From contig NZ_SJPT01000001.1 of the NCBI RefSeq assembly GCF_007860095.1, positions 200,212 through 264,211 of the forward strand: DNA of 64,000 nt, given 5' to 3'. Shown here in pieces: positions 636 to 11,862 of this stretch. Every line of letters starts with the position of its first letter. The first letter of the stretch is position 1. The position numbers were made by a program, and so were the translations under genes. The notes under the pieces were generated by a model. That model worked only from the letters and a program-made list of their open reading frames with translations, had not been told where the DNA came from and ran no database searches. This stretch comes from Novipirellula galeiformis (GTDB lineage: Bacteria; Planctomycetota; Planctomycetia; Pirellulales; Pirellulaceae).

Positions 636-780
636 TACTACTCACGCGTACCCGCACAAGGTGCTCTGTCCCCGTTGGCTACTCACGCGTACCCGCACAA
701 GGTGCTCTGTCCCCGTTGGCTCCGTTGGCTCAAGGTGCTCTGTCCCCGTTGGCTCTCTCAAGGTGCTCTGTCCCCGTTGG
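398..780 (+). repeat. REP-like array: eight copies of GTGCTCTGTCCCCGTTGG
   Basis: The core TGCTCTGTCCCCGTTGG, or a one- or two-base variant of it, starts near 398, 441, 463, 618, 662, 702, 735 and 763. Spacing is irregular, from about 20 to 155 bases. The later copies are linked by short duplicated spacers, such as the ACTCACGCGTACCCGCACAAG segment before copies 5 and 6, and by loose TCCGTTGGCT units at 721-730 and 800-810. Irregular spacing and unit length argue against CRISPR. A REP/BIME-type element mobilised by the adjacent transposase is the best explanation. Open frames through the array are products of the repeats and are not called. Bases 811-1189 hold nothing I can recognise. Confidence 0.75.
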
Positions 781-1189
781 CTGCTCCGTTGGCTGTTGGC
801 TCCGTTGGCTTGCTCGCTGCGCTGCCAGCACTCTCGCGTTTAGCAGTACGGGGACGTAAAGCCGTCAGCGGGCCGGCTCCACCACTGCGAACCGAGCCAA
901 GCGAAGTTTTTTCTCGAGACGTGATGGATCCGAGTTAACGTCGCTGGGTGAATGCGGTTTAGATCGGGATCAGCAACCGGCGATAGAGCGAATGAGCGGT
1001 TGCCGTGAGACATCGCCCCCGCTGCGGCGGGAAGCCTGAAGTATCGCCTGGAATGCGGTTTGCATCCGCTCCGGTTTGTCGATCCGCTTCTGTTTTTGTG
1101 ATCCGATCGCCCTCGCGGAAGTCAGCGGCGAAGAGGTCATTGCGGAGGAGCTGGTCGTTTGAGTGAATTGAATAAAGCAAAGGGTTTTG

Positions 1190-2443
1190 ATGGATGTCCG
1201 CGCCAAATTGGCCATTCTTGCCGATGCCGCCAAATACGATGCGTCCTGCGCCAGCAGCGGTGCGAAGAGTACCCGTGCGGGCAGCCAGATCGGTAGCACC
1301 GAAGGCATGGGGATCTGTCATAGCTATAGCCCCGACGGAAGATGCATCTCGCTGCTGAAGATTCTGCTGACAAACTACTGCATCTACGATTGCCAGTACT
1401 GCATTAACCGCATTTCAAGCGACACCCCGCGTGCTCGATTTACGGTCGATGAAGTGGTCTCGCTGACGATGGAATTCTACAAACGCAACTATGTCGAAGG
1501 ATTGTTTCTCAGCTCGGGGATCATTCAGAATTCAGACTACACGATGGAGCAATTGATCGCGGTCGCGAAGCAATTGCGCACTGTGCATGGTTACGGCGGC
1601 TACCTCCATTTGAAAACGATTCCCAATGCAGCCCAGTCCTTGATCGAAGAAGCGGGTAAGTGGGCTGATCGGTTGAGCGTTAATATTGAATTGCCCAGCG
1701 AAGGGGATCTGTATCAATTGGCGCCGGAGAAAAAGAAGCCGCAAATCGTGGGCGCAATGCAGGGCATTCGGCAAAAAATCGACGAAGCCCAACAGGAACA
1801 GGCCGCCGGTTACAAGCCGCCGCGGTTTGCGCCGGCCGGTCAGAGCACGCAAATGATCGTGGGGGCAACGCCGACATCGGACGTCGAAGTTTTGAAGACC
1901 GCGAGCGAACTGTATACGGGGCAACGTCTGCGCCGAGTCTATTATTCGGCGTACAGTCCGATTCCTCACGCTGATGCCCGGTTGCCCGGTCAAGCACCGC
2001 CGTTGATCCGCGAACATCGACTGTATCAAGCGGATTGGCTGATGCGATTCTACGGTTTCGAGGCCGATGAGATCGTCACCGAACCTGATCGAAATCTGTC
2101 CTTGGACATCGACCCCAAATTGGCGTGGGCGTTGGCCAACCGGCACTTCTTTCCCGTCGATGTCAATCGAGCGAGCCGAGAGGAATTGCTGCGGATTCCC
2201 GGCATCGGTGTTCGCAACGTGAAACGGTTGTTGGCGATCCGAAAGCATAAGAATTTACGCAGCGAAGATTTGAAGAAGCTGCGTGTGGCTTGGAACCGAG
2301 CCAAGGTGTTTGTGTTGACCGCGGATCACAATCCGAATTTAAGTGATTTGGACAAGTTAGATCTAGGCAAGCGGATGCGTCCAAAGTCGCAGCAATTGAT
2401 GTTGTTCGATGCAGCCGGTTCCGCACGGTCGGGAGAAGTTTGA
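1190..2443 (+). CDS. Putative DNA modification/repair radical SAM protein with C-terminal HhH domain
   Basis: This is a 417-residue member of the spore-photoproduct-lyase-like radical SAM family that is typically encoded next to a UDG-family protein. A C-x3-C-x2-C cluster (C64, C68, C71, within NYCIYDCQYC) would bind the [4Fe-4S] centre used to cleave SAM. A helix-hairpin-helix near residues 325-349 (NRASREELLRIPGIG) suggests binding to DNA without sequence specificity. The substrate lesion is not known. ATG 1190 follows AAAGGG by 5 bases and is preferred over the in-frame TTG at 1187. The gene abuts the next one directly (TGA 2441-2443, ATG 2444), so it opens a six-gene operon. Family assignment is confident; the chemistry is inferred. 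Confidence 0.88.
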   Translation: MDVRAKLAILADAAKYDASCASSGAKSTRAGSQIGSTEGMGICHSYSPDGRCISLLKILLTNYCIYDCQYCINRISSDTPRARFTVDEVVSLTMEFYKRNYVEGLFLSSGIIQNSDYTMEQLIAVAKQLRTVHGYGGYLHLKTIPNAAQSLIEEAGKWADRLSVNIELPSEGDLYQLAPEKKKPQIVGAMQGIRQKIDEAQQEQAAGYKPPRFAPAGQSTQMIVGATPTSDVEVLKTASELYTGQRLRRVYYSAYSPIPHADARLPGQAPPLIREHRLYQADWLMRFYGFEADEIVTEPDRNLSLDIDPKLAWALANRHFFPVDVNRASREELLRIPGIGVRNVKRLLAIRKHKNLRSEDLKKLRVAWNRAKVFVLTADHNPNLSDLDKLDLGKRMRPKSQQLMLFDAAGSARSGEV

Positions 2444-3868
2444 ATGCACTTTGTTCGGATCGATACTTTTGATCAATGGCGCAGTGAAGCGAGGAGATTG
2501 TTGCTGGCGGAAACGGCGCCTAGCGAGGTGAGTTTTTCTACTACCGATGATCAACTCTCTCTCTTCGCGTCGGAACCCAATGTGCCGACGAGCTCCGGCC
2601 AGCGTGGTGCAGCTGCGGCGAGCGTTTTGAAAGTGCCGCGAGAGTTTTTGGCGTTGGCCGAAACGGTGGCATGCCACCGCGGAACGCATCGCTGGGAATT
2701 GCTGTATCGAACCGTGTGGCGATTGACGCATGGTGAGCCGCAATTGCTGCAGATTAGCATGGATGACGATGTCCACTCGCTACAGCAAATGCTCAAAGCG
2801 GTGACTCGTGACGTCCACAAGATGAAGGCATTCGTTCGTTTCCGCAAGCTTGAAGAGGCGTCGTCACCGCAAGCCTCCTACGTCGCTTGGCACCGTCCCG
2901 ATCACAGAATCGTGCGGTTAGCGGCACCCTTCTTCGCTCGCCGTTTCAAGGCGATGCACTGGACGATCCTGACCCCCGATGAATCGGCGACTTGGGATCA
3001 AACACAGCTGCGGTATGGTGCGGGCGTACCGGCAAGCGAATCGCCCGACGGCGATGCTTTGGAAGCACTTTGGAAAACCTATTACGCATCGATCTTCAAT
3101 CCCGCACGCGTCAACGTCGCGATGATGAAACGAGAGATGCCCGTGCGACACTGGCAAACCCTGCCCGAGACCGAGTTGATCCCGGAATTGTTGGCTGCCG
3201 CGCCCGCTCGCGTCGCGGAAATGATCGAAAACAACGAAGGGTTTGCTCAGACCGCAGCCCACTACATGCCGGCCGACACCGGGTTGGACTCGTTGCGAGC
3301 GGCAGCAGCCAGTTGCCGTGCGTGTGATTTGCATCACTGTGCAACTCAAACGGTGTTCGGCGAAGGACCGCCTCGTGCCCGCATCGTGATCGTCGGTGAA
3401 CAACCGGGCGATAACGAAGACATTGCCGGAAAACCGTTCGTCGGTCCGGCCGGCCAACTGCTGGACCAATCCTTGGCTCGAGCCGGGATCCAGCGTGATG
3501 AGGTGTATGTCACAAACGTGGTCAAGCACTTCAAATTCACGACCCGTGGTAAACGTCGCTTGCATCGCAAGCCCGACTCTCGTGAAATCTTTGCCTGTCG
3601 CCCTTGGTTGGAAGCGGAACTTGCGGCCGTGAAGCCTAGTTCGATCCTCTGTTTAGGAGCAACGTCGTCCCAGGCTTTGTTTGGACGTGATTTTCGCATC
3701 ACCCTCAGTCGCGGACAAACATTCGAAACGGAGTGGAGTCGGCGAACGATCGCGACGTGGCATCCCGCCGCCATTTTGCGAATGCCCGACGCGGCAAGAT
3801 CTCAACAGATGGAACAACAATTGGTAGACGATTTAGTCTTGGCTGCTGCGAGACCGGGCAAGACGTGA
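2444..3868 (+). CDS. udgX: DUF4130-like domain fused to UdgX-type uracil-DNA glycosylase
   Basis: This 474-residue protein has two parts. Residues about 80-235 match the DNA-metabolism domain (DUF4130 type) usually found beside the radical SAM protein. Residues about 285-470 form a UDG-superfamily domain with GEQPGDNED (318-326), the UdgX-specific loop KRRLH (370-374) and HPAAILR (440-446). In characterised UdgX the loop histidine, here H374, forms a covalent bond to the excised-uracil site. Cysteines 291, 294, 385 and 403 fit the iron-sulfur ligands of this class. The protein therefore probably traps uracil-containing DNA. Its start abuts the radical SAM stop codon, and its own TGA overlaps the next ATG by one base (TGATG). 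Confidence 0.9.
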   Translation: MHFVRIDTFDQWRSEARRLLLAETAPSEVSFSTTDDQLSLFASEPNVPTSSGQRGAAAASVLKVPREFLALAETVACHRGTHRWELLYRTVWRLTHGEPQLLQISMDDDVHSLQQMLKAVTRDVHKMKAFVRFRKLEEASSPQASYVAWHRPDHRIVRLAAPFFARRFKAMHWTILTPDESATWDQTQLRYGAGVPASESPDGDALEALWKTYYASIFNPARVNVAMMKREMPVRHWQTLPETELIPELLAAAPARVAEMIENNEGFAQTAAHYMPADTGLDSLRAAAASCRACDLHHCATQTVFGEGPPRARIVIVGEQPGDNEDIAGKPFVGPAGQLLDQSLARAGIQRDEVYVTNVVKHFKFTTRGKRRLHRKPDSREIFACRPWLEAELAAVKPSSILCLGATSSQALFGRDFRITLSRGQTFETEWSRRTIATWHPAAILRMPDAARSQQMEQQLVDDLVLAAARPGKT

Positions 3869-4935
3869 TGCAAGAACTGCTTCAGACGACCGATCGCGGA
3901 TTGTACTGCGCAGCCGGCGACTTCTACATCGATCCCCAGCGGCCGGTGGATCGTGCGGTGGTCACGCATGCGCATAGCGACCACGCACGATGGGGATGCC
4001 GGCGGTACTTGGCGGTCAGCGAAAGCGAACATTTATTGCGGATGAGGATGAGCAGCGATGCGGAGTTTCAATTTCTCCGTTACGGTGAATCGGTCACCAT
4101 CGGCGGCGTGAACCTTCGTTTTCATCCGGCGGGACACATGCTGGGCTCCGCCCAAGTCCGGCTGGAGTATCGCGGTAAAGTGGCCGTGGCGATGGGCGAT
4201 CATAAGTTGGGTCGCGATCCAACCTGCAAGAGCTGGGAACCGGTCAAGTGTCATTTGTTGGTGACCGAGTCGACGTTTGGGTTACCGGTGTATCGTTGGC
4301 AGCCCGAGCAAGTCACGACGGACGTGATTAACCAATGGTGGCGAGAGAGCCGGGACGACGGAAAATGCAGTGTGCTTTACGGTTACGCGGTGGGAAAGAG
4401 TCAGCGATTGCTGGCGGGACTTGATCCTAGCATCGGTCCGATCTTTACTCACGGTGCTGTGGAAAAGGGGACGGAGGCTTATCGCAAGACAGGCGTCGAT
4501 CTGCCCAACACGACTTACGTTGGCTCGGTAACCGGTAAACGTGATTGGAGTGGCGCGATGGTCGTCGCGGTGCCGAGCGCCCACGGTTCGACTTGGATGC
4601 GAAAATTCGGCCGGATCAGTACCGCGATGGCTAGCGGTTGGATGGCCGTCCGCGGGGCCCGTCGACGACGCTCGGTCGATCGGGGCTTTGTTGTCAGCGA
4701 CCATGTCGATTGGCCCACCTTGATTGAAGCCGTCGAGGCTTGCGATCCCGACACATTGTGGGTCACTCATGGCTACTCGGCGGTGGTCGCTCGTTACTTT
4801 CAAGAACGTGGGCGTGATGCTCATGTGGTCAACTCACCGGTTCGTGGAGAAGCCGAAGCCGACGCGGCGGCAGATCAGGACTCTGGCGATGAACAGGCAT
4901 CCGATGATCAGAGCACTGGGGGTACTGAATCATGA
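3868..4935 (+). CDS. Ligase-associated DNA exonuclease (metallo-beta-lactamase fold)
   Basis: This 355-residue protein belongs to the beta-CASP/metallo-beta-lactamase nucleases encoded with bacterial ATP-dependent ligases. The metal site is visible as THAHSDH (H34, H36, D38, H39), with further ligands in PAGH (H90) and GDHK (D111), and a TESTFG motif near residue 133. By family it should trim DNA ends in a repair reaction before ligation. I chose ATG 3868, which shares a base with the previous stop, over an upstream in-frame ATG at 3733 that lies inside the UdgX gene and adds unconserved sequence. The 3' end overlaps the ligase start by four bases (ATGA). Confidence 0.9.
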   Translation: MQELLQTTDRGLYCAAGDFYIDPQRPVDRAVVTHAHSDHARWGCRRYLAVSESEHLLRMRMSSDAEFQFLRYGESVTIGGVNLRFHPAGHMLGSAQVRLEYRGKVAVAMGDHKLGRDPTCKSWEPVKCHLLVTESTFGLPVYRWQPEQVTTDVINQWWRESRDDGKCSVLYGYAVGKSQRLLAGLDPSIGPIFTHGAVEKGTEAYRKTGVDLPNTTYVGSVTGKRDWSGAMVVAVPSAHGSTWMRKFGRISTAMASGWMAVRGARRRRSVDRGFVVSDHVDWPTLIEAVEACDPDTLWVTHGYSAVVARYFQERGRDAHVVNSPVRGEAEADAAADQDSGDEQASDDQSTGGTES

Positions 4936-6533
4936 TGCGTTTTGCCGCCCTGTACCACTCGCTTGACTCGACGACCAAGACCAATGCAAAGATCGTCGCC
5001 ATGGCGGACTACTTCTCGGCCGTTGCCGCCTCCGACGCGGCCTGGGCGACGTACTTTTTATCGGGTAATAAACTGCGCCGCTTGGTGCCCACCAAGTTGC
5101 TGCGAAGCTGGGCCGCCGAGGAAGCCGGGATCGCCTCGTGGTTGTTTGAAGAGTCGTACCATGCGGTCGGGGATTTAGCGGAAACCCTTTCGCTGATCGT
5201 GCCGCCTGGGCAAGTCGTAGACGACCTTTCGCTGACTCAGTGGGTCGAAGAGCGGCTGTTGCCGCTGCGCGGGTGTGATGAGGACGAGCTGCGGACGGCC
5301 GTCGTGGACATTTGGCGTCAGACGTCCACACCGGTGCGGTTTGTGATCATGAAGTTGATCACCGGAGCGTTTCGCGTGGGAGTTAGCAAGCGATTGGTGA
5401 CGCGTGCGATCGCCGAACAATCGGCGGTCACCGCCGACGTGGTTTCGCATCGCTTGATGGGAAATTGGGAGCCAACGAGCACGTTTTTTCAACAGCTAAT
5501 CGACCCCGACACACGCGACACGCAGGCCAGCCAGCCGTATCCGTTCTGTTTGGCCCATCCGATTGAGATTGAGCACGGCCCCGCGGTGCTTGGCGATGCA
5601 GCGGACTATGTGGCGGAATGGAAATGGGATGGCATTCGCGGACAAGTGATTCGTCGTCAACAGCAGTCCTTCATATGGTCGCGTGGGGAAGAGTTGATGG
5701 AAAACCGCTGGCCTGAGATCGAAGCGGCCGCCGCGGCGCTGCCCAACGGCACCGTTTTGGACGGCGAGATATTGGCCTGTCGCTCCAGCGGGGAGGTGTT
5801 GCCGTTCGCACAGCTACAGCGCCGAATCGGCCGCAAGTCGGTGGGCAAAAAATTGAGACGCGAAGTGCCAGTGGTGTTCCACGCCTTTGACTTGTTGGAG
5901 CACGCTGGGGTCGACATCCGCGAGTTGCCGCTAATCGATCGCCGAGCGCGTCTAGAAAACTTGTTGGCGTCCCTAGAGCATCCCAATCTAGCCATTAGCG
6001 ACCGGATTGCCGGAGCATCCTGGGATGACTGGGCCGCGATTCGTGAACACAGCCGCGAACACCGTGCCGAAGGGTTGATGCTCAAACGCAATGACTCGGT
6101 CTACGACGTCGGCCGAGTGCGCGGAACGTGGTGGAAATGGAAGGTCGCCCCGTACACGATCGATGCGGTGTTGATCTATGCGCAAAAAGGGCACGGCCGG
6201 CGAGCCAGTTTGTTCACCGATTATACGTTCGCCTTGTGGGACGAAGGTGTGCTGGTCCCGTTTGCCAAGGCCTATAGTGGTTTGCAAGACAAAGAGATCC
6301 GCGAGGTCGATCGATTTGTGCGGAAGAACACCAAGGACTCGTTTGGTCCGGTCCGTAGTGTGACCCCGGCGTTGGTGATGGAATTGGCGTTTGAGGGTTT
6401 GCAGCGCTCGCCGCGTCACAAGAGCGGCGTCGCGACGAGATTCCCGCGAATCCTCCGCTGGCGTCACGACAAACGACCGCAAGACGCCAACCAGTTGAGC
6501 GACTTGCTAAAACTAGCGCCTCCGGAGTCGTGA
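4932..6533 (+). CDS. ATP-dependent DNA ligase of the ligase-associated repair cluster
   Basis: This is a 533-residue ATP-dependent ligase of the family encoded with the associated exonuclease, helicase and PdeM genes. The N-terminal part (about 1-205) is the helical DNA-binding domain. The nucleotidyltransferase motif KWDGIR places the AMP-accepting lysine at K231. DGEIL, FHAFDLL and the EGLMLK segment are further ligase motifs, and an OB-fold follows (WWKWKV onward). It is not the replicative NAD-dependent LigA but an accessory repair ligase. The start overlaps the exonuclease stop as ATGA. Its TGA at 6531-6533 shares its last base with the ATG of the helicase. Confidence 0.93.
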   Translation: MMRFAALYHSLDSTTKTNAKIVAMADYFSAVAASDAAWATYFLSGNKLRRLVPTKLLRSWAAEEAGIASWLFEESYHAVGDLAETLSLIVPPGQVVDDLSLTQWVEERLLPLRGCDEDELRTAVVDIWRQTSTPVRFVIMKLITGAFRVGVSKRLVTRAIAEQSAVTADVVSHRLMGNWEPTSTFFQQLIDPDTRDTQASQPYPFCLAHPIEIEHGPAVLGDAADYVAEWKWDGIRGQVIRRQQQSFIWSRGEELMENRWPEIEAAAAALPNGTVLDGEILACRSSGEVLPFAQLQRRIGRKSVGKKLRREVPVVFHAFDLLEHAGVDIRELPLIDRRARLENLLASLEHPNLAISDRIAGASWDDWAAIREHSREHRAEGLMLKRNDSVYDVGRVRGTWWKWKVAPYTIDAVLIYAQKGHGRRASLFTDYTFALWDEGVLVPFAKAYSGLQDKEIREVDRFVRKNTKDSFGPVRSVTPALVMELAFEGLQRSPRHKSGVATRFPRILRWRHDKRPQDANQLSDLLKLAPPES

Positions 6534-9019
6534 TGCGGCAAGTCTCTATCAAACCTCCCACGCCGTCCGCTCGCGTCGATGGTTACTTCGCTAATATCGG
6601 TTGGAAGCCGTTCCGTTTTCAGCGGTCGGTTTGGAAGGCCTACATGCAAGGTTGCAGCGGCTTGGTGCACTCGGCGACGGGAACCGGCAAGACGTTGGCC
6701 GTTTGGATGGGACCGATTCAAAAATGGCTGAAAGAGAACCCCGATGACGCGTGCTGGAATCCGAAACGCCCACCATCCCTCCGCGTGCTTTGGATCACTC
6801 CGCTGCGGGCGCTTGCCGGTGACACCGAAGCATCGTTGCGGGCACCACTCGACTCGCTCGGCTTGCCTTGGCGATTGGAGTCGCGGACCGGGGACAGCAA
6901 ATCGAGTGCGAAGGCACGCCAATTGAAACGTTTGCCAACCGCGCTGGTCACCACTCCGGAAAGCCTCTCGTTGATGTTGACTCACGAGAGACTGCTAGAA
7001 CAACTGGCGGGCCTCGAAGCCGTAATCGTCGATGAATGGCACGAACTCTTAGGTACTAAACGTGGCATTCAAACGGAGCTCGCACTCGCTCGCCTACGCA
7101 AATTGAATCCACAATTACGCACCTGGGGTGTCTCGGCGACGCTGGGAAATCTTGAGCAGGCCGAGTCCTCGCTGCTGGGGGTCGACCCGGCCGGTGAAGC
7201 GCGCATGATTCAGGGCTATCGCAAGAAGCGACTGAAATTTCAATCGTTGATTCCTGCTCAAATGGAACGCTTTCCCTGGTCCGGCCACATCGGTACCAAA
7301 ATGGTGCCTCAGGTAGCCTCGCTGCTGGACCAAGTGACCAGTGCGTTGGTGTTCGCCAACACTCGCTCTCAAACGGAACGGTGGTACCAACATTTATTAA
7401 AACAGCGACCGGATTGGGCCGGCAAGGTTGCACTGCATCACGGCTCGTTGGACACGTCGGTTCGTCGCTGGGTCGAAGACGCACTGCGCGATGGAAAGCT
7501 GCGTGCGGTGGTCTGCACGAGCAGCTTGGATCTCGGAGTCGACTTTACCGCCGTTGACCTCGTCATCCAGATCGGCAGCCCCAAGGGGGCCGCTCGTTTG
7601 CTGCAGCGTGCCGGTCGTAGCGGACATCAACCGGACGCGGAGAGTCGTTTGGCCTTTGTCCCGACCAACGCGATCGAATTGATCGAGCTGGCCGCGGCGC
7701 AGGATGCGATCCGCAGCGGACGTCTCGAAGCCCGCCCGTTGCTGAACAAACCGCTCGACGTTTTAGCGCAACATGCGGTGACGATCGCGGTAGGCGGTGG
7801 TTTTGATCCCGACGAACTCCTGCAAGAGATCCGTTCGAGTCACGCCTATCAATCGTTAACTCAACGTGAATGGCAATGGGTGTTGGACTTCGTTGTCCGC
7901 GGTGGCAGTTCACTCGCAGCCTATCCCGATTTTCACCGTGTCGAGATCGTCGATGGTCGATACCAGGTGACGCAGCGGCGAACGATCTCGCTGCATCGCA
8001 TGAACATCGGCACGATCGTGTCCGATGCATCGATGCAAGTGAAGTACTTGAAAGGCAAAACGCTAGGGACTGCGGAAGAGCATTTCTTGTCAAAGCTGCA
8101 GCCCGGCGATCGTTTTCTGTTTGCGGGGAGATTGGTTTCGTTGTCACGAATCAAAGAGAATGTGGCTTACGTGCGAAGGGCCACGGGGCAACCCGACAGC
8201 GTGCCGCGGTGGACGGGAGGACGCATGCCATTGTCGAGCGAATTGAGCGCTGCGCTGCGGGAAAAGATGGAACAGGCTGCCGATGGACAGCTTGTCGGAG
8301 CGGAGATGAAGTCGCTCAAACGGTTGTTTGCGATTCAGCAGCGTTGGAGCGTGTTGCCACGTCGCGAGCAACTATTGATCGAGCGGATCGAAACACGCCG
8401 CGGCCATCAATTGTTTGTTTTCCCGTTCGAAGGTCGGCTGGTTCATGAAGGCTTGGCAGCGCTTTTGGCGTATCGTATCTCACGCGTCCAGAAAACCACA
8501 TTCACGATGGCCTGCAATGATTATGGTTTGGTGTTGCAGAGCCCCCACAAGATCGCGATCAAGCAGTGGATTGCGGACGGCTTGTTCAATACCGAGGCAC
8601 TTGTTCCGGACATCCTCCGCAGTATGAATTCGACGGAAATGGCAAAACGCCAATTTCGCCAGATCGCGCGTGTCGCAGGCTTGATTCATCCCGGTTACCC
8701 AGGGCAACGCAAGAACACCAGCCACGTACAAGCCAGTTCCAATTTGTTCTTTGATGTGTTCTGTCAATACGATCCTGATAACCTGCTGTTGGAACAGGCA
8801 CGTCGTGAGGTCTTGGAACTGCAGTTGGAATCGTCACGCATGATCACTGCGTTAGACCGACTTGAGGACAGTGAAATCATCGTCACCGATCCACCCAAAG
8901 TGACGCCGCTTGCGTTTCCTTTGTTGGTGGACAAGCTACGAGAACGGGTGAGCAGCGAAACGCTGGCCGACCGCATTCGGCGAATGCAAACGCAACTCGA
9001 AAAAGCGGCGGACCAATAG
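6533..9019 (+). CDS. Ligase-associated Lhr-like DEXH-box helicase
   Basis: This 828-residue superfamily 2 helicase is related to Lhr. Visible motifs are SATGTGKT (Walker A, 47-54), TPLRAL (motif Ia), DEWH (167-170, the Walker B box), SAT (201-203) and LLQRAGRSGHQ (motif VI). The C-terminal half carries the Lhr-type winged-helix and core domains. In this cluster it probably unwinds or remodels repair intermediates. ATG 6533 overlaps the ligase stop by one base (TGATG). A GTG at 6530 is also in frame and would add only one residue, so the ATG is preferred. Two bases separate the stop from the next start. Confidence 0.93.
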   Translation: MRQVSIKPPTPSARVDGYFANIGWKPFRFQRSVWKAYMQGCSGLVHSATGTGKTLAVWMGPIQKWLKENPDDACWNPKRPPSLRVLWITPLRALAGDTEASLRAPLDSLGLPWRLESRTGDSKSSAKARQLKRLPTALVTTPESLSLMLTHERLLEQLAGLEAVIVDEWHELLGTKRGIQTELALARLRKLNPQLRTWGVSATLGNLEQAESSLLGVDPAGEARMIQGYRKKRLKFQSLIPAQMERFPWSGHIGTKMVPQVASLLDQVTSALVFANTRSQTERWYQHLLKQRPDWAGKVALHHGSLDTSVRRWVEDALRDGKLRAVVCTSSLDLGVDFTAVDLVIQIGSPKGAARLLQRAGRSGHQPDAESRLAFVPTNAIELIELAAAQDAIRSGRLEARPLLNKPLDVLAQHAVTIAVGGGFDPDELLQEIRSSHAYQSLTQREWQWVLDFVVRGGSSLAAYPDFHRVEIVDGRYQVTQRRTISLHRMNIGTIVSDASMQVKYLKGKTLGTAEEHFLSKLQPGDRFLFAGRLVSLSRIKENVAYVRRATGQPDSVPRWTGGRMPLSSELSAALREKMEQAADGQLVGAEMKSLKRLFAIQQRWSVLPRREQLLIERIETRRGHQLFVFPFEGRLVHEGLAALLAYRISRVQKTTFTMACNDYGLVLQSPHKIAIKQWIADGLFNTEALVPDILRSMNSTEMAKRQFRQIARVAGLIHPGYPGQRKNTSHVQASSNLFFDVFCQYDPDNLLLEQARREVLELQLESSRMITALDRLEDSEIIVTDPPKVTPLAFPLLVDKLRERVSSETLADRIRRMQTQLEKAADQ

Positions 9020-9021
9020 AG

Positions 9022-9699
9022 ATGCATGTCGATATCACGGTCGGTCAAACCCGTTTGCGTCTGCTTGCTCGGCGCGCCATTTATTGGTCGCAACTACAAA
9101 CCTTGTTCGTCGCCGATACGCACTTCGGCAAAGATGCGACCTTTCGGCGTCATGGGATTCCGGTTCCCACTGGCAGCACGGCGGCAACGCTGAGTATCCT
9201 TTCGCAGATGCTCGCCACGACGTCGGCTAAACACCTCGTCATCTTGGGCGACATGTTCCATGCTCGGTCGTCGCTTTCGGAGGAGGTGTGTGACGCGCTG
9301 TCATCGTTCTTTGCTCGACATGCGGAGCTGCGGCGTACCTTGGTTCGGGGAAACCATGATGCGCATCTGGGGCCGTTGCCGGAAGCTTGGTCCTTGGAAG
9401 TGGTTGAGCCAGGCACGCGAATGGGCAACGTGGCCCTCGGTCACCAACCGACTACGGTTCCCGAAGACGCGGATCTGTTGCTCTGTGGGCATCTCCATCC
9501 AGCACTTTCGATCGGCCGGGGAAAGGACAAACTCGGGAAACTGCCCTGTTTTTGGCTTTCAAAACGCTGCCTTGTGTTACCCGCGCTGGGGCAATTCACC
9601 GGAACCTATGCTATTGAGATGGCCGCGAATGATCGTGCTTGGGTCGTCGCCGACGAGCAACTGATCGAACTGGCTCCGCCACTCGATGACATTCGCTGA
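9022..9699 (+). CDS. pdeM: Ligase-associated endonuclease/phosphoesterase, PdeM type
   Basis: This 225-residue calcineurin-like metallophosphoesterase closes the repair operon. Its metal-binding motifs are ADTHFGK (31-37), GDMFHAR (76-82), GNHD (110-113) and GHLHP (156-160). This is the set expected of the PdeM family that accompanies the ATP-dependent ligase, exonuclease and helicase. It probably cleaves or cleans DNA ends. The ATG lies two bases after the helicase stop, with no room for a separate promoter. The 181 bases downstream, up to the deaminase, contain no recognisable gene. Confidence 0.9.
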   Translation: MHVDITVGQTRLRLLARRAIYWSQLQTLFVADTHFGKDATFRRHGIPVPTGSTAATLSILSQMLATTSAKHLVILGDMFHARSSLSEEVCDALSSFFARHAELRRTLVRGNHDAHLGPLPEAWSLEVVEPGTRMGNVALGHQPTTVPEDADLLLCGHLHPALSIGRGKDKLGKLPCFWLSKRCLVLPALGQFTGTYAIEMAANDRAWVVADEQLIELAPPLDDIR

Positions 9700-9880
9700 T
9701 CGCGTTGGGGCGAATCGGTCGGATCGAAATGGGAAGCCGTACCGAAATGGAAGTTGCCAAACGATGGCGGCACGAGAGTTGCGTGAATGAGCTAGAAATA
9801 AGAGTCGCAAACAAGGGTGGTCGCTAAGGTGGCTTGCTGCCGAAGAATGATCGCGGCGTTTTGACAATGCAGGAATTTGA

Positions 9881-10354
9881 ATGCGCAGGTCACAGCTAGA
9901 AGCTTGGATGAGTGTCGCGGTTTCCGAGTGCCGCAAGGGCCTCGAGCAAGGCGAAAGCCCCTTTGGTGCCGCGATCTTTGATCCCGGCGGCGAGTTGGTG
10001 GCAGCGCAGTTCAATGTGGTCAATACCCAGCAGGATCCCACGGCCCACGCCGAAGTGATGGCGATCCGTGCGGCGTGTCAAACGCTGGGCGTCATGACAC
10101 TGGAGGAACACTGGTTGGTTTCCACGGGGGAGCCCTGTTTGATGTGTGCGTCGGTCGCCGTGACAGCGGGCATCCGCAAATTGGCGTACGGCGCAGATTG
10201 CCGGTTTATCGACGCGGTCGGGTTCGAGACATGGGGTGTCACCAGTGAGCACATTTTTCGAGACGCTGGTATCGAGGTTGAAGTCGAAGGTGGGATTCTT
10301 AAGGACCAGTGCGAAACGCTGCTGCGTGAATCGCAAGCAAGTCGGTCGATTTGA
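9881..10354 (+). CDS. Nucleoside/nucleobase deaminase (zinc-dependent)
   Basis: This 157-residue protein is of the cytidine/deoxycytidylate/guanine deaminase fold. The catalytic zinc site is complete: HAE (56-58) supplies a histidine ligand and the proton-shuttling glutamate, and PCLMC (85-89) supplies two cysteines. Length and motif spacing fit small free-nucleoside or guanine deaminases, and also tRNA adenosine deaminase TadA. I see no feature that settles the substrate. It lies 181 bases after the repair operon on the same strand, so it probably has its own promoter. Confidence 0.8.
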   Translation: MRRSQLEAWMSVAVSECRKGLEQGESPFGAAIFDPGGELVAAQFNVVNTQQDPTAHAEVMAIRAACQTLGVMTLEEHWLVSTGEPCLMCASVAVTAGIRKLAYGADCRFIDAVGFETWGVTSEHIFRDAGIEVEVEGGILKDQCETLLRESQASRSI

Positions 10355-10475
10355 CTTCACGTCTAGAACCATTCGGAGACGCGATTCGTTCGTCCTTCGT
10401 CGCCTGACCGATCGGAATTCGCACACGTAATGAACGTAACGAAGCTTAGGGAACTACGAATCAGGATATTTTAAC

Positions 10476-11030
10476 TTGATTGAAAAATGGCTTGCTGCCG
10501 AGTGGAGCTCAATCGCACTGGTGGGACTGTCGTCTCTCGTTTGCTATGCGGCAATCTTGCTGTACACGCGAATCGTCGGCCTTCGCAGTTTTTCCAAATT
10601 GTCTGCTGCCGATTTTGCCATGACGATCGCGGTGGGCTCGTTGTTCGCATCGACAATCTCCGCCCCCAGCCCGACACTCGTCTTAGGCATCGTAGCGATT
10701 GGCTGTTTGTACGCGATGCAGTGGGGAGTGGCGGTGGCGCGACGCCAGTCCAAGATGTTCGGCAAGGCGTTGGACAACCAGCCCTTGCTATTGATGCGTG
10801 GCCCGGTTTTCCTGGACGACAATTTAAAGCAAGCGAATGTCACACGTGAGGACGTCTACGGCAAGCTTCGGGCTGCGAACGTGTTTAGCTATGACCAAAT
10901 ATTGGCCGTGGTGTTCGAAACCACCGGAGACATTTCAGTGATCCACTCCAGCGACGATGCAGCCAAACTGGATCCCGATTTTTTTCACGATGTCATCGGC
11001 GCGGAGCACCTGAGCGAACCAATTCGGTAA
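10476..11030 (+). CDS. DUF421 family membrane protein (YetF-like)
   Basis: This 184-residue protein has hydrophobic segments at about 13-30, 48-62 and 65-82. They are followed by a soluble DUF421 domain with the family signatures YTRIVGLRSFSKLSAADF and an LLMRGPVF strand. The biochemical role of the family is unknown. The start is TTG at 10476, preceded by AGGA at 10463-10466. The next methionine (residue 49) would delete the first transmembrane helix, so TTG is favoured. It stands alone between the deaminase and endonuclease III genes. Confidence 0.75.
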   Translation: MIEKWLAAEWSSIALVGLSSLVCYAAILLYTRIVGLRSFSKLSAADFAMTIAVGSLFASTISAPSPTLVLGIVAIGCLYAMQWGVAVARRQSKMFGKALDNQPLLLMRGPVFLDDNLKQANVTREDVYGKLRAANVFSYDQILAVVFETTGDISVIHSSDDAAKLDPDFFHDVIGAEHLSEPIR

Positions 11031-11174
11031 CCAACTCACTAGCTCCTATTTTGAAACTCGACCAGAACGACCGATATGTCGAAGCGACTCTTCCGGGGGC
11101 TTACCAGTCCCAGCAGAGTTCGTGCTGGCACGTCGGGCGTCTGCCCTCCACGCTGCAATCCCTTTAGCAACTCC

Positions 11175-11193
11175 AGGAGGAGCGTCGATTTTG
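11175..11193 (+). promoter_or_regulatory. Strong Shine-Dalgarno sequence that sets a TTG start for endonuclease III
   Basis: AGGAGGAG begins at 11175 and lies about 10 bases before TTG 11191. It is one of the clearest ribosome binding sites in the window. It favours TTG 11191 over the in-frame GTG at 11122, whose extra 23 residues do not look like the family. Confidence 0.65.
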
Positions 11194-11862
11194 CGTTTGC
11201 TAACCCATCGAGAGATTGAACGCCTTTATCGGATCTTGTCACAATCCATGCCGGGGCGCAGTTCGTCGGCCAAGGGGCCCAAGGGCCAACCCGATCCGTT
11301 TCGAACCTGCCTTGCTTGCATCCTTTCGGCTCAATCATTGGACCAAAACACCGCAGTCGCCACGAAGGCTCTGTTCAAGTTGGCACGCACCCCGAGGACG
11401 ATGCTAAAACTCTCGGTGGAGCAAGTTGCTGCCGCGATCAAGCCATGTGGCCTTTACAACGTGAAGGCTCGGAGCATTCAAGGATTCTGTGCGACGTTGA
11501 TCGACGAATTCGACGGGATCGTTCCACAAACTCGCGACGAGTTATTGCGTTTGCCGGGGATTGGACGCAAGTGTGCAGACATCGTGTTGCAGTTCGCGTT
11601 TGGGCAACCCACGATTGCGGTCGACACCCACGTCTTTCGAGTCTGCAATCGCACCGGACTCGCGCCCGGAAAGACGGCCGATAAAACCGCCGACGCCTTG
11701 TTAGCCCGAACGCCCGAGTGGGCAGTGGAGCAAGCCCATTTTTGGCTGATTCAATTCGGCAAACGCATCTGTGTGGCTCGCACACCACGTTGCGATGTCT
11801 GTCCGCTCAATCAGATGTGCCGAGATTACATCGATCGTCAGCCGGTCCCGATGATCCGGTGA
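11191..11862 (+). CDS. nth: Endonuclease III (DNA glycosylase/AP lyase)
   Basis: This is a 223-residue base-excision repair enzyme that removes oxidised pyrimidines and nicks the resulting abasic site. The helix-hairpin-helix LPGIGRK ends with the catalytic lysine K127. The catalytic aspartate is D145 in VDTHVFR. The [4Fe-4S] cysteines C194, C201, C204 and C210 keep the family C-x6-C-x2-C-x5-C spacing. Length matches E. coli Nth (211). The start is TTG 11191, chosen because of the AGGAGG just upstream. Downstream lies a stretch of decayed mobile-element DNA. Confidence 0.93.
   Translation: MRLLTHREIERLYRILSQSMPGRSSSAKGPKGQPDPFRTCLACILSAQSLDQNTAVATKALFKLARTPRTMLKLSVEQVAAAIKPCGLYNVKARSIQGFCATLIDEFDGIVPQTRDELLRLPGIGRKCADIVLQFAFGQPTIAVDTHVFRVCNRTGLAPGKTADKTADALLARTPEWAVEQAHFWLIQFGKRICVARTPRCDVCPLNQMCRDYIDRQPVPMIR

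Follow-up and report, generated by a model that had tools for sequence, protein, structure and literature searches.

When two sets of DNA-repair genes that are usually found apart lie in one row, do their products also act together? This question is raised by a stretch of 64,000 nucleotides from Novipirellula galeiformis (Planctomycetota, Pirellulaceae; contig NZ_SJPT01000001.1, positions 200,212 to 264,211 of the forward strand), referred to as the window. In this window, genes for a radical SAM protein and a DUF4130-UdgX fusion protein (the "pair") are directly followed by genes for a ligase-associated exonuclease, an ATP-dependent DNA ligase, an Lhr-core helicase and the nuclease PdeM (the "module"). 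We consider it likely that two known damage-response sets were joined here, most likely once, and that they were then mostly inherited whole as a co-directional cluster. The joined arrangement is genuine and maintained in several species; a single new repair pathway made up of all six proteins is unproven. What is new is the arrangement: its parts were already known and are usually separate, and as far as sampled it is an event of one clade.

Six adjoining genes and their families

Six open reading frames occupy positions 1190-9699 of the forward strand in one direction, and their junctions abut, overlap or leave a gap of 2 bases. Each of the six proteins scores above the curated NCBIfam cut-off of its own family:

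1190..2443, + strand: radical SAM protein, TIGR03916 (rSAM_link_UDG), 573.3 bits against a cut-off of 343.5
2444..3868, + strand: DUF4130 (TIGR03915) fused to UdgX (TIGR03914), 281.4 against 189.95 bits and 216.4 against 112.25 bits
3868..4935, + strand: ligase-associated exonuclease of the metallo-beta-lactamase fold, TIGR04122, 458.7 bits against a cut-off of 325
4932..6533, + strand: ATP-dependent DNA ligase of the ligase-associated set, TIGR04120, 642.2 bits against a cut-off of 400
6530..9019, + strand: Lhr-core DEXH helicase, TIGR04121, 1094.4 bits against a cut-off of 850
9022..9699, + strand: PdeM/MPE metallophosphoesterase nuclease, TIGR04123, 206.3 bits against a cut-off of 150

The junctions read TGA directly followed by ATG at 2443/2444 (radical SAM/UdgX), TGATG around 3868 (UdgX/exonuclease), ATGA at 4932-4935 (exonuclease/ligase), TGATG around 6533 (ligase/helicase; a GTG start at 6530 is also conceivable) and TAG-AG-ATG at 9019/9022 (helicase/PdeM). 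Placement and tight spacing of the genes, as proposed by an earlier sequence-only reading of the locus, are borne out by the coordinates of the reading frames and by each junction, and its assignment of the six families to a known pair and a known four-gene module is upheld by the NCBIfam scores, the four families of the module being above cut-off, mutually adjacent and co-directional. All six genes show the co-direction and the tiny or negative gaps by which a single operon is recognised, and their co-expression is likely.

The radical SAM protein carries the motif CxxxCxxC at residues 64-71 and a helix-hairpin-helix close to its C-terminus. C64, C68 and C71 are unvarying in 13 aligned rows and CxxxCxxC is present in 87/87 rows of the radical SAM alignments, while the Radical_SAM and HHH_3 domains both stay below the Pfam gathering scores. 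Its AlphaFold model (pLDDT 82.9) matched radical SAM folds, with 4u0o as best structure (Z 17.2, root-mean-square deviation [rmsd] 3.3, 224 aligned). In the protein encoded at 2444..3868, the domains DUF4130 and UDG were detected at Pfam level, and its best PDB sequence matches are UdgX proteins (6iod, E 1.3e-58). The UdgX half superposes on UdgX of Mycobacterium smegmatis (6iod; Z 33.3, rmsd 1.3, 207 aligned, 49% identity), and the displayed matches of a structure search with the whole model of 474 residues fall on the UDG half. Motif A, GEQPG, is present in 54/55 aligned UdgX rows including that of the window, and the R-loop reads KRRLH, in which His374 corresponds to the catalytic histidine (His in 54/55 rows). 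Motif A and the R-loop histidine are thus common to the window protein and M. smegmatis UdgX (PDB 6ail, 6iod), from which the former differs by its N-terminal DUF4130 fusion, by KRRLH in place of KRRIH and by its motif B, HPAAILR. The latter, found in 12/55 rows with the window's included, is also unlike the motif B printed in PMC10359453, HPS(S/A)(L/V)(L/V)R. According to the same paper, UdgX bonds covalently to the abasic site after excision of uracil.

Both genes correspond in identity, order and UdgX motifs to the known radical SAM/DUF4130-UdgX pair (TIGR03916 with TIGR03914/TIGR03915; COG4277-COG1573, where we take COG4277 to be the TIGR03916 radical SAM family). They differ from it in that they run straight into the ligase module and in that no SOS box was recognised. 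DUF4130 has been associated with SplB-like radical SAM proteins and UDG, as stated in PMC3765255, and PMC8565304 places the COG1573-COG4277 pair under SOS regulation in Bacteroidetes and describes UDG-based repair as SOS-regulated in Verrucomicrobia and Alphaproteobacteria. A literature search on UdgX together with radical SAM found no paper, and our literature searches brought up no experiment on what the radical SAM/DUF4130 partner of UdgX does.

Some copies of the pair deviate. The DUF4130-UdgX protein of G140 (L069 6453-8108) aligns as two pieces and that of Paludisphaera soli (L102 11224-12462) has an alignment gap at the R-loop histidine; both are possibly degraded copies or frameshifts. 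Relatives of DUF4130-UdgX were also found on 393 of 72,556 plasmid records, of which 143 cover at least 80% of the query and the remainder may be other UDGs. These plasmids are often from Rhizobium, Sinorhizobium or Phaeobacter, and in a few of the listed records the radical SAM gene is annotated alongside.

As to the module, the ligase carries the ligase domains A_N, A_M and A_C, the helicase the domains DEAD, Helicase_C, WH_Lhr and DEAD_assoc (PDB match 5v9x, E 5.1e-63), and the PdeM/MPE protein matches nuclease MPE (6nvo, E 1.9e-38). A repair cluster of Lhr, MPE (PdeM), Exo and ATP-dependent ligase is reportedly known from work of Ejaz and Shuman. The same four families (TIGR04120-04123) are adjacent and co-directional in the window, which differs by the two genes added upstream and has the order Exo-Lig-Lhr-PdeM. 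The Lhr/MPE/Exo/ligase operon is described in PMC10140301, which states that role and target damage are not known, and MPE was found close to Lhr-core genes in 276/319 genomes, as given in PMC8301817. The module is incomplete in G002, G034 and G201, where exonuclease and ligase stand alone in the stretch, without Lhr and PdeM. An unjoined module in G184 has its lhr gene (L096 11861-13444) interrupted at residue 741 by some 1.6 kb, in which each forward frame contains 9 to 22 stops; this is probably an insertion.

Joined and separate occurrence of pair and module

We searched a phylum sample of 149 genomes and a sample of relatives with 98 genomes, the genome of the window (G000) being common to both. 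In addition, named GTDB contigs were scanned with the radical SAM alignment and the best 80 of 593 loci considered; one of these is Neorhodopirellula pilleata, and 55 of the other 79 have the full flank of 10 kb on both sides. The complete set of six, with order and orientation unchanged, is present in G000, G149, G150, G176 and G203. Neorhodopirellula pilleata (G245) has them joined as radical SAM-UdgX-ligase-Lhr-PdeM, with the exonuclease elsewhere in the genome. The joined cases thus comprise the genome of the window, two of the same genus, two other genera of the same family, and N. pilleata. Since the six-gene order recurs across genomes, the arrangement goes beyond chance. The exonuclease of N. 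pilleata (L183 6171-7229) is 62% identical to that of the window, versus 74-81% for the joined ones.

Within the phylum sample the radical SAM protein exceeded the cut-off in 7/149 genomes and the ligase in 6/149; 5 genomes had both, joined only in G000 and apart in the other 4. Among the relatives, radical SAM was found in 12/98, ligase in 22/98 and both in 8, joined in 5 (G000, G149, G150, G176, G203) and apart in G161, G201 and G218. In G002, a distance of 546 kb separates radical SAM and ligase on the same contig; G034, G045 and G140 have them on separate contigs, and the stretches around each never hold both sets. With the two samples pooled, 12 genomes carry radical SAM and ligase. The sequence-only reading had held that the functional link would be weak if pair and module were far apart in other planctomycetes and the transcripts separate in the window. 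The two sets are apart in 7/12 of these genomes, and 5/12 have them joined.

In the flanks examined at the other 79 GTDB pair loci, no module gene above 100 bits was detected, and the sole match over 70 bits is a 28% identical ligase in L157. With such a gene beside 0/79 of them, the six-gene unit was rejected as a general arrangement. No joined case was found outside this one planctomycete clade, in the sampled genomes and the best 80 loci. The operon-like union that had been read from the window stands insofar as six genomes share it (in one of them with a displaced exonuclease), and as far as sampled it belongs to a single clade.

The PdeM proteins of the joined relatives are 50-66% identical to that of the window. 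Junctions in the window and in G176 are mostly overlapping or abutting. Beyond the operon the window continues with the following genes:

9881-11862, downstream of the operon: deaminase-like, membrane and endonuclease III-like genes, also present in G176

The membrane gene has no NCBIfam match (we presume it to be DUF421) and the endonuclease III-like gene scores just below its cut-off. These neighbours were not found in the 3.5-5.6 kb beyond the operon in G149, G150, G203 and N. pilleata. As the neighbours differ while the core order is kept, the core appears to have outlasted its surroundings.

In a tree of 28 ligases, those from the six joined genomes form one clade (100/99). In a tree of 21 radical SAM proteins, those from the joined six form one clade together with the proteins of G156 and G193 (98/95), the last two being sisters (95/96). 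In G156 and G193 we found no ligase, no exonuclease and no module genes beside the pair, Lhr and PdeM not having been sought genome-wide. For the radical SAM protein, 13% of the 200 bootstrap trees contain a branch setting the joined six apart, so that G156 and G193 may lie either inside or beside the joined six. One joining, followed by one loss in the ancestor of G156 and G193, would fit these data best, and the joining may be placed in the ancestor of one Rhodopirellula-like clade, a label taken from the nearest named relative.

Co-occurrence, a second home of the pair, and the meaning of the union

Pair and ligase also co-occur where they are unlinked. For 50 of the other 79 GTDB pair loci the genomes were examined, and in 42/50 of these pair-bearing genomes the ligase exceeded the cut-off. 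Class samples, each including one centre genome picked for having the pair, showed the ligase in 9/10 pair-bearing Alphaproteobacteria (190 genomes; 8/9 without the chosen centre) and in 3/3 pair-bearing Gammaproteobacteria (203 genomes; 2/2 without it). In both samples, radical SAM and ligase either share no contig or are separated by about 200 kb or more. Fisher tests, which treat genomes as independent though they are related, gave p values for the pair-ligase association of 2e-7 in the phylum sample, 6e-4 among the relatives, 9e-5 in Alphaproteobacteria and 7e-4 in Gammaproteobacteria without the centre. Caulobacter vibrioides, one of two control genomes with a radical SAM match, matched ligase and exonuclease as well.

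However, several observations weigh against a specific bond between the two sets or against their union as one regulated unit. Ku (TIGR02772) is present in 6/9 pair-bearing and 21/180 other Alphaproteobacteria (pair-Ku p 3e-4; ligase-Ku p 1e-8), so that co-occurrence is not ligase-specific, and the pair-ligase association is not clear any more within Ku-positive (p 0.13) or Ku-negative (p 0.08) genomes. In the other control genome, Bacteroides ihuae, radical SAM was matched and ligase was not. UdgX and exonuclease are up to 226 bases apart (in G150), and translational coupling at this seam is therefore not conserved. When 18 upstream regions were searched with consensus SOS boxes of several other phyla, no convincing box emerged, the sole hit being one short match of the Bacteroidetes type in G203. 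The pair-ligase co-occurrence is strong, yet not specific; much of it is accounted for by lineages that tend to accumulate repair genes in general. As proof of a link between pair and module it was rejected, because Ku, a protein of non-homologous end joining, tracks the pair almost equally.

A different home of the pair emerged from queries with ImuA, ImuB and DnaE2 of L111, of which DnaE2 scores over its NCBIfam cut-off and ImuB matches DNA polymerase IV models below cut-off; ImuA is presumed from its position. At least one imu/dnaE2 gene lies near the pair in 14 of the best 80 of 593 loci, all from Alphaproteobacteria (54 of the loci are of that class). In the sphingomonad loci L113 (7815-16281), L138, L146, L156, L163 and L172, the pair is enclosed by imuB and dnaE2, which share its direction; at L109, L111, L121 and L140 it stands divergently beside the cassette. 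Thus, the imuA-imuB-dnaE2 mutagenesis cassette hosts the same pair in some sphingomonads. These queries detected no such genes in the window or in the 400 kb of contig next to it, the rest of the genome not having been searched, nor in the surroundings of the joined operon in G149, G150, G176, G203 and N. pilleata. Together with the reports of SOS regulation, the imuB/dnaE2 home fits a pair that may be a portable damage-response unit.

How, then, is the union to be understood? The pair might functionally belong to SOS mutagenesis by ImuA, ImuB and DnaE2 and have been inserted beside the module opportunistically, an explanation compatible with the joining of two damage-response sets and one we regard as a serious possibility, though short of likely. 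The 14 loci with imu/dnaE2 genes, six of them with the pair between imuB and dnaE2 and four divergent, argue for it, as does the SOS regulation of the pair reported in PMC8565304; the absence of matches to these queries in the other 66 of the best 80 loci, in the 34 stretches from the phylum that carry pair or module genes (L067-L100), and in the searched part of the window's contig argues against it. A dedicated pathway would give the pair the role of a lesion-specific front end of the module: UdgX would mark a uracil or abasic site covalently, radical SAM/DUF4130 would modify it, PdeM/MPE would nick, the exonuclease trim, Lhr unwind and the ligase seal. A succession of this kind, from lesion recognition through trimming and unwinding to ligation, was what the sequence-only reading suggested. 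Such a pathway could account for an operon-like union kept in six genomes despite the divergence of PdeM, and for the ligase in most pair-bearing genomes examined even where unlinked. Yet the pair is present in G156 and G193, where neither ligase nor exonuclease was found. This indicates that the pair does not need the module. In addition, 14 of the 22 ligase-bearing relatives are without the radical SAM gene. (Conversely, 4/12 radical SAM genomes among the relatives are without ligase; one of them, G182, is 72% complete.) As the Ku control co-occurs similarly and the pair accompanies imuB/dnaE2 elsewhere among bacteria, we deem a dedicated pathway unlikely.

We give equally little credence to a neutral rearrangement, in which shared descent alone, without shared regulation, would have kept the genes adjacent. 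Restriction of the joined cases to one clade, the displaced exonuclease of one joined genome and the lack of ligase and exonuclease in G156 and G193, perhaps through one loss in their common ancestor, count in its favour; the core order kept where the downstream neighbours were not found (four joined genomes) and the mostly overlapping or abutting junctions of the window and G176 speak against it. The union of two damage-response sets, mostly inherited whole, is the reading we prefer. With the pair directly upstream of the exonuclease-ligase-helicase-PdeM operon, both sets would be made together under DNA damage. UdgX would excise uracil in DNA and remain covalently on the abasic site, a radical reaction on DNA or on the UdgX adduct may be carried out by radical SAM/DUF4130, and the ligase module would cut, trim, unwind and reseal damaged strands. 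In our view, it is more probable that the two sets complement each other within one stress response than that they act in succession. That UdgX-trapped uracil or abasic sites, after an undescribed radical SAM/DUF4130 chemistry, are the substrate which the module excises and reseals, in trans in most bacteria with both sets and here from one operon, strikes us as distinctly improbable.

The union points to a candidate partner for each of the two sets. For the module, whose target lesion is stated as unknown in PMC10140301, the joined operon and the ligase co-occurrence name a candidate link that can be tested; the second home of the pair, between imuB and dnaE2, offers alternative tests.

The region upstream of the operon

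A consensus scan of positions 700-10000 returned 0 sigma-70-like promoters, against a chance expectation of 3.3, and 16 terminator-like sites, against one of 11.6. On these counts, internal transcript ends are neither supported nor excluded. One short element recurs upstream of the pair:

953..961, + strand: upstream element TGCGGTTTA (TGCGGTTWA), with a near-copy at 1054-1062
L081 13817-13825, - strand: TGCGGTTWA in a relative
L082 7419-7427: TGCGGTTWA in a relative
L083 13792-13800, - strand: TGCGGTTWA in a relative
L085 9546-9554: TGCGGTTWA in a relative
L095 7136-7144: TGCGGTTWA in a relative

Always located upstream and oriented in the direction of the gene, it precedes the pair by 88-237 bases in G000, G149, G150, G176 and G161; in G160 it precedes the separate module by 106 bases. 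Exact matches occur in 5/14 upstream regions of the pair and 1/11 of the module, which make up 6/8 exact matches in 429 kb, with the motif having been picked after inspection of these same regions. In 800 kb of G000 and G150 it matched 11 times, none of them before a recognisable DNA-repair gene as judged from the inspected translation starts.

Just upstream of the operon, positions 260-824 hold a cluster of direct repeats, a family of 39 nucleotides in 7 copies, and a stretch of 159 nucleotides is duplicated (260-418 and 480-638). An open reading frame of 184 amino acids at 384-938 seems to have arisen from these repeats.

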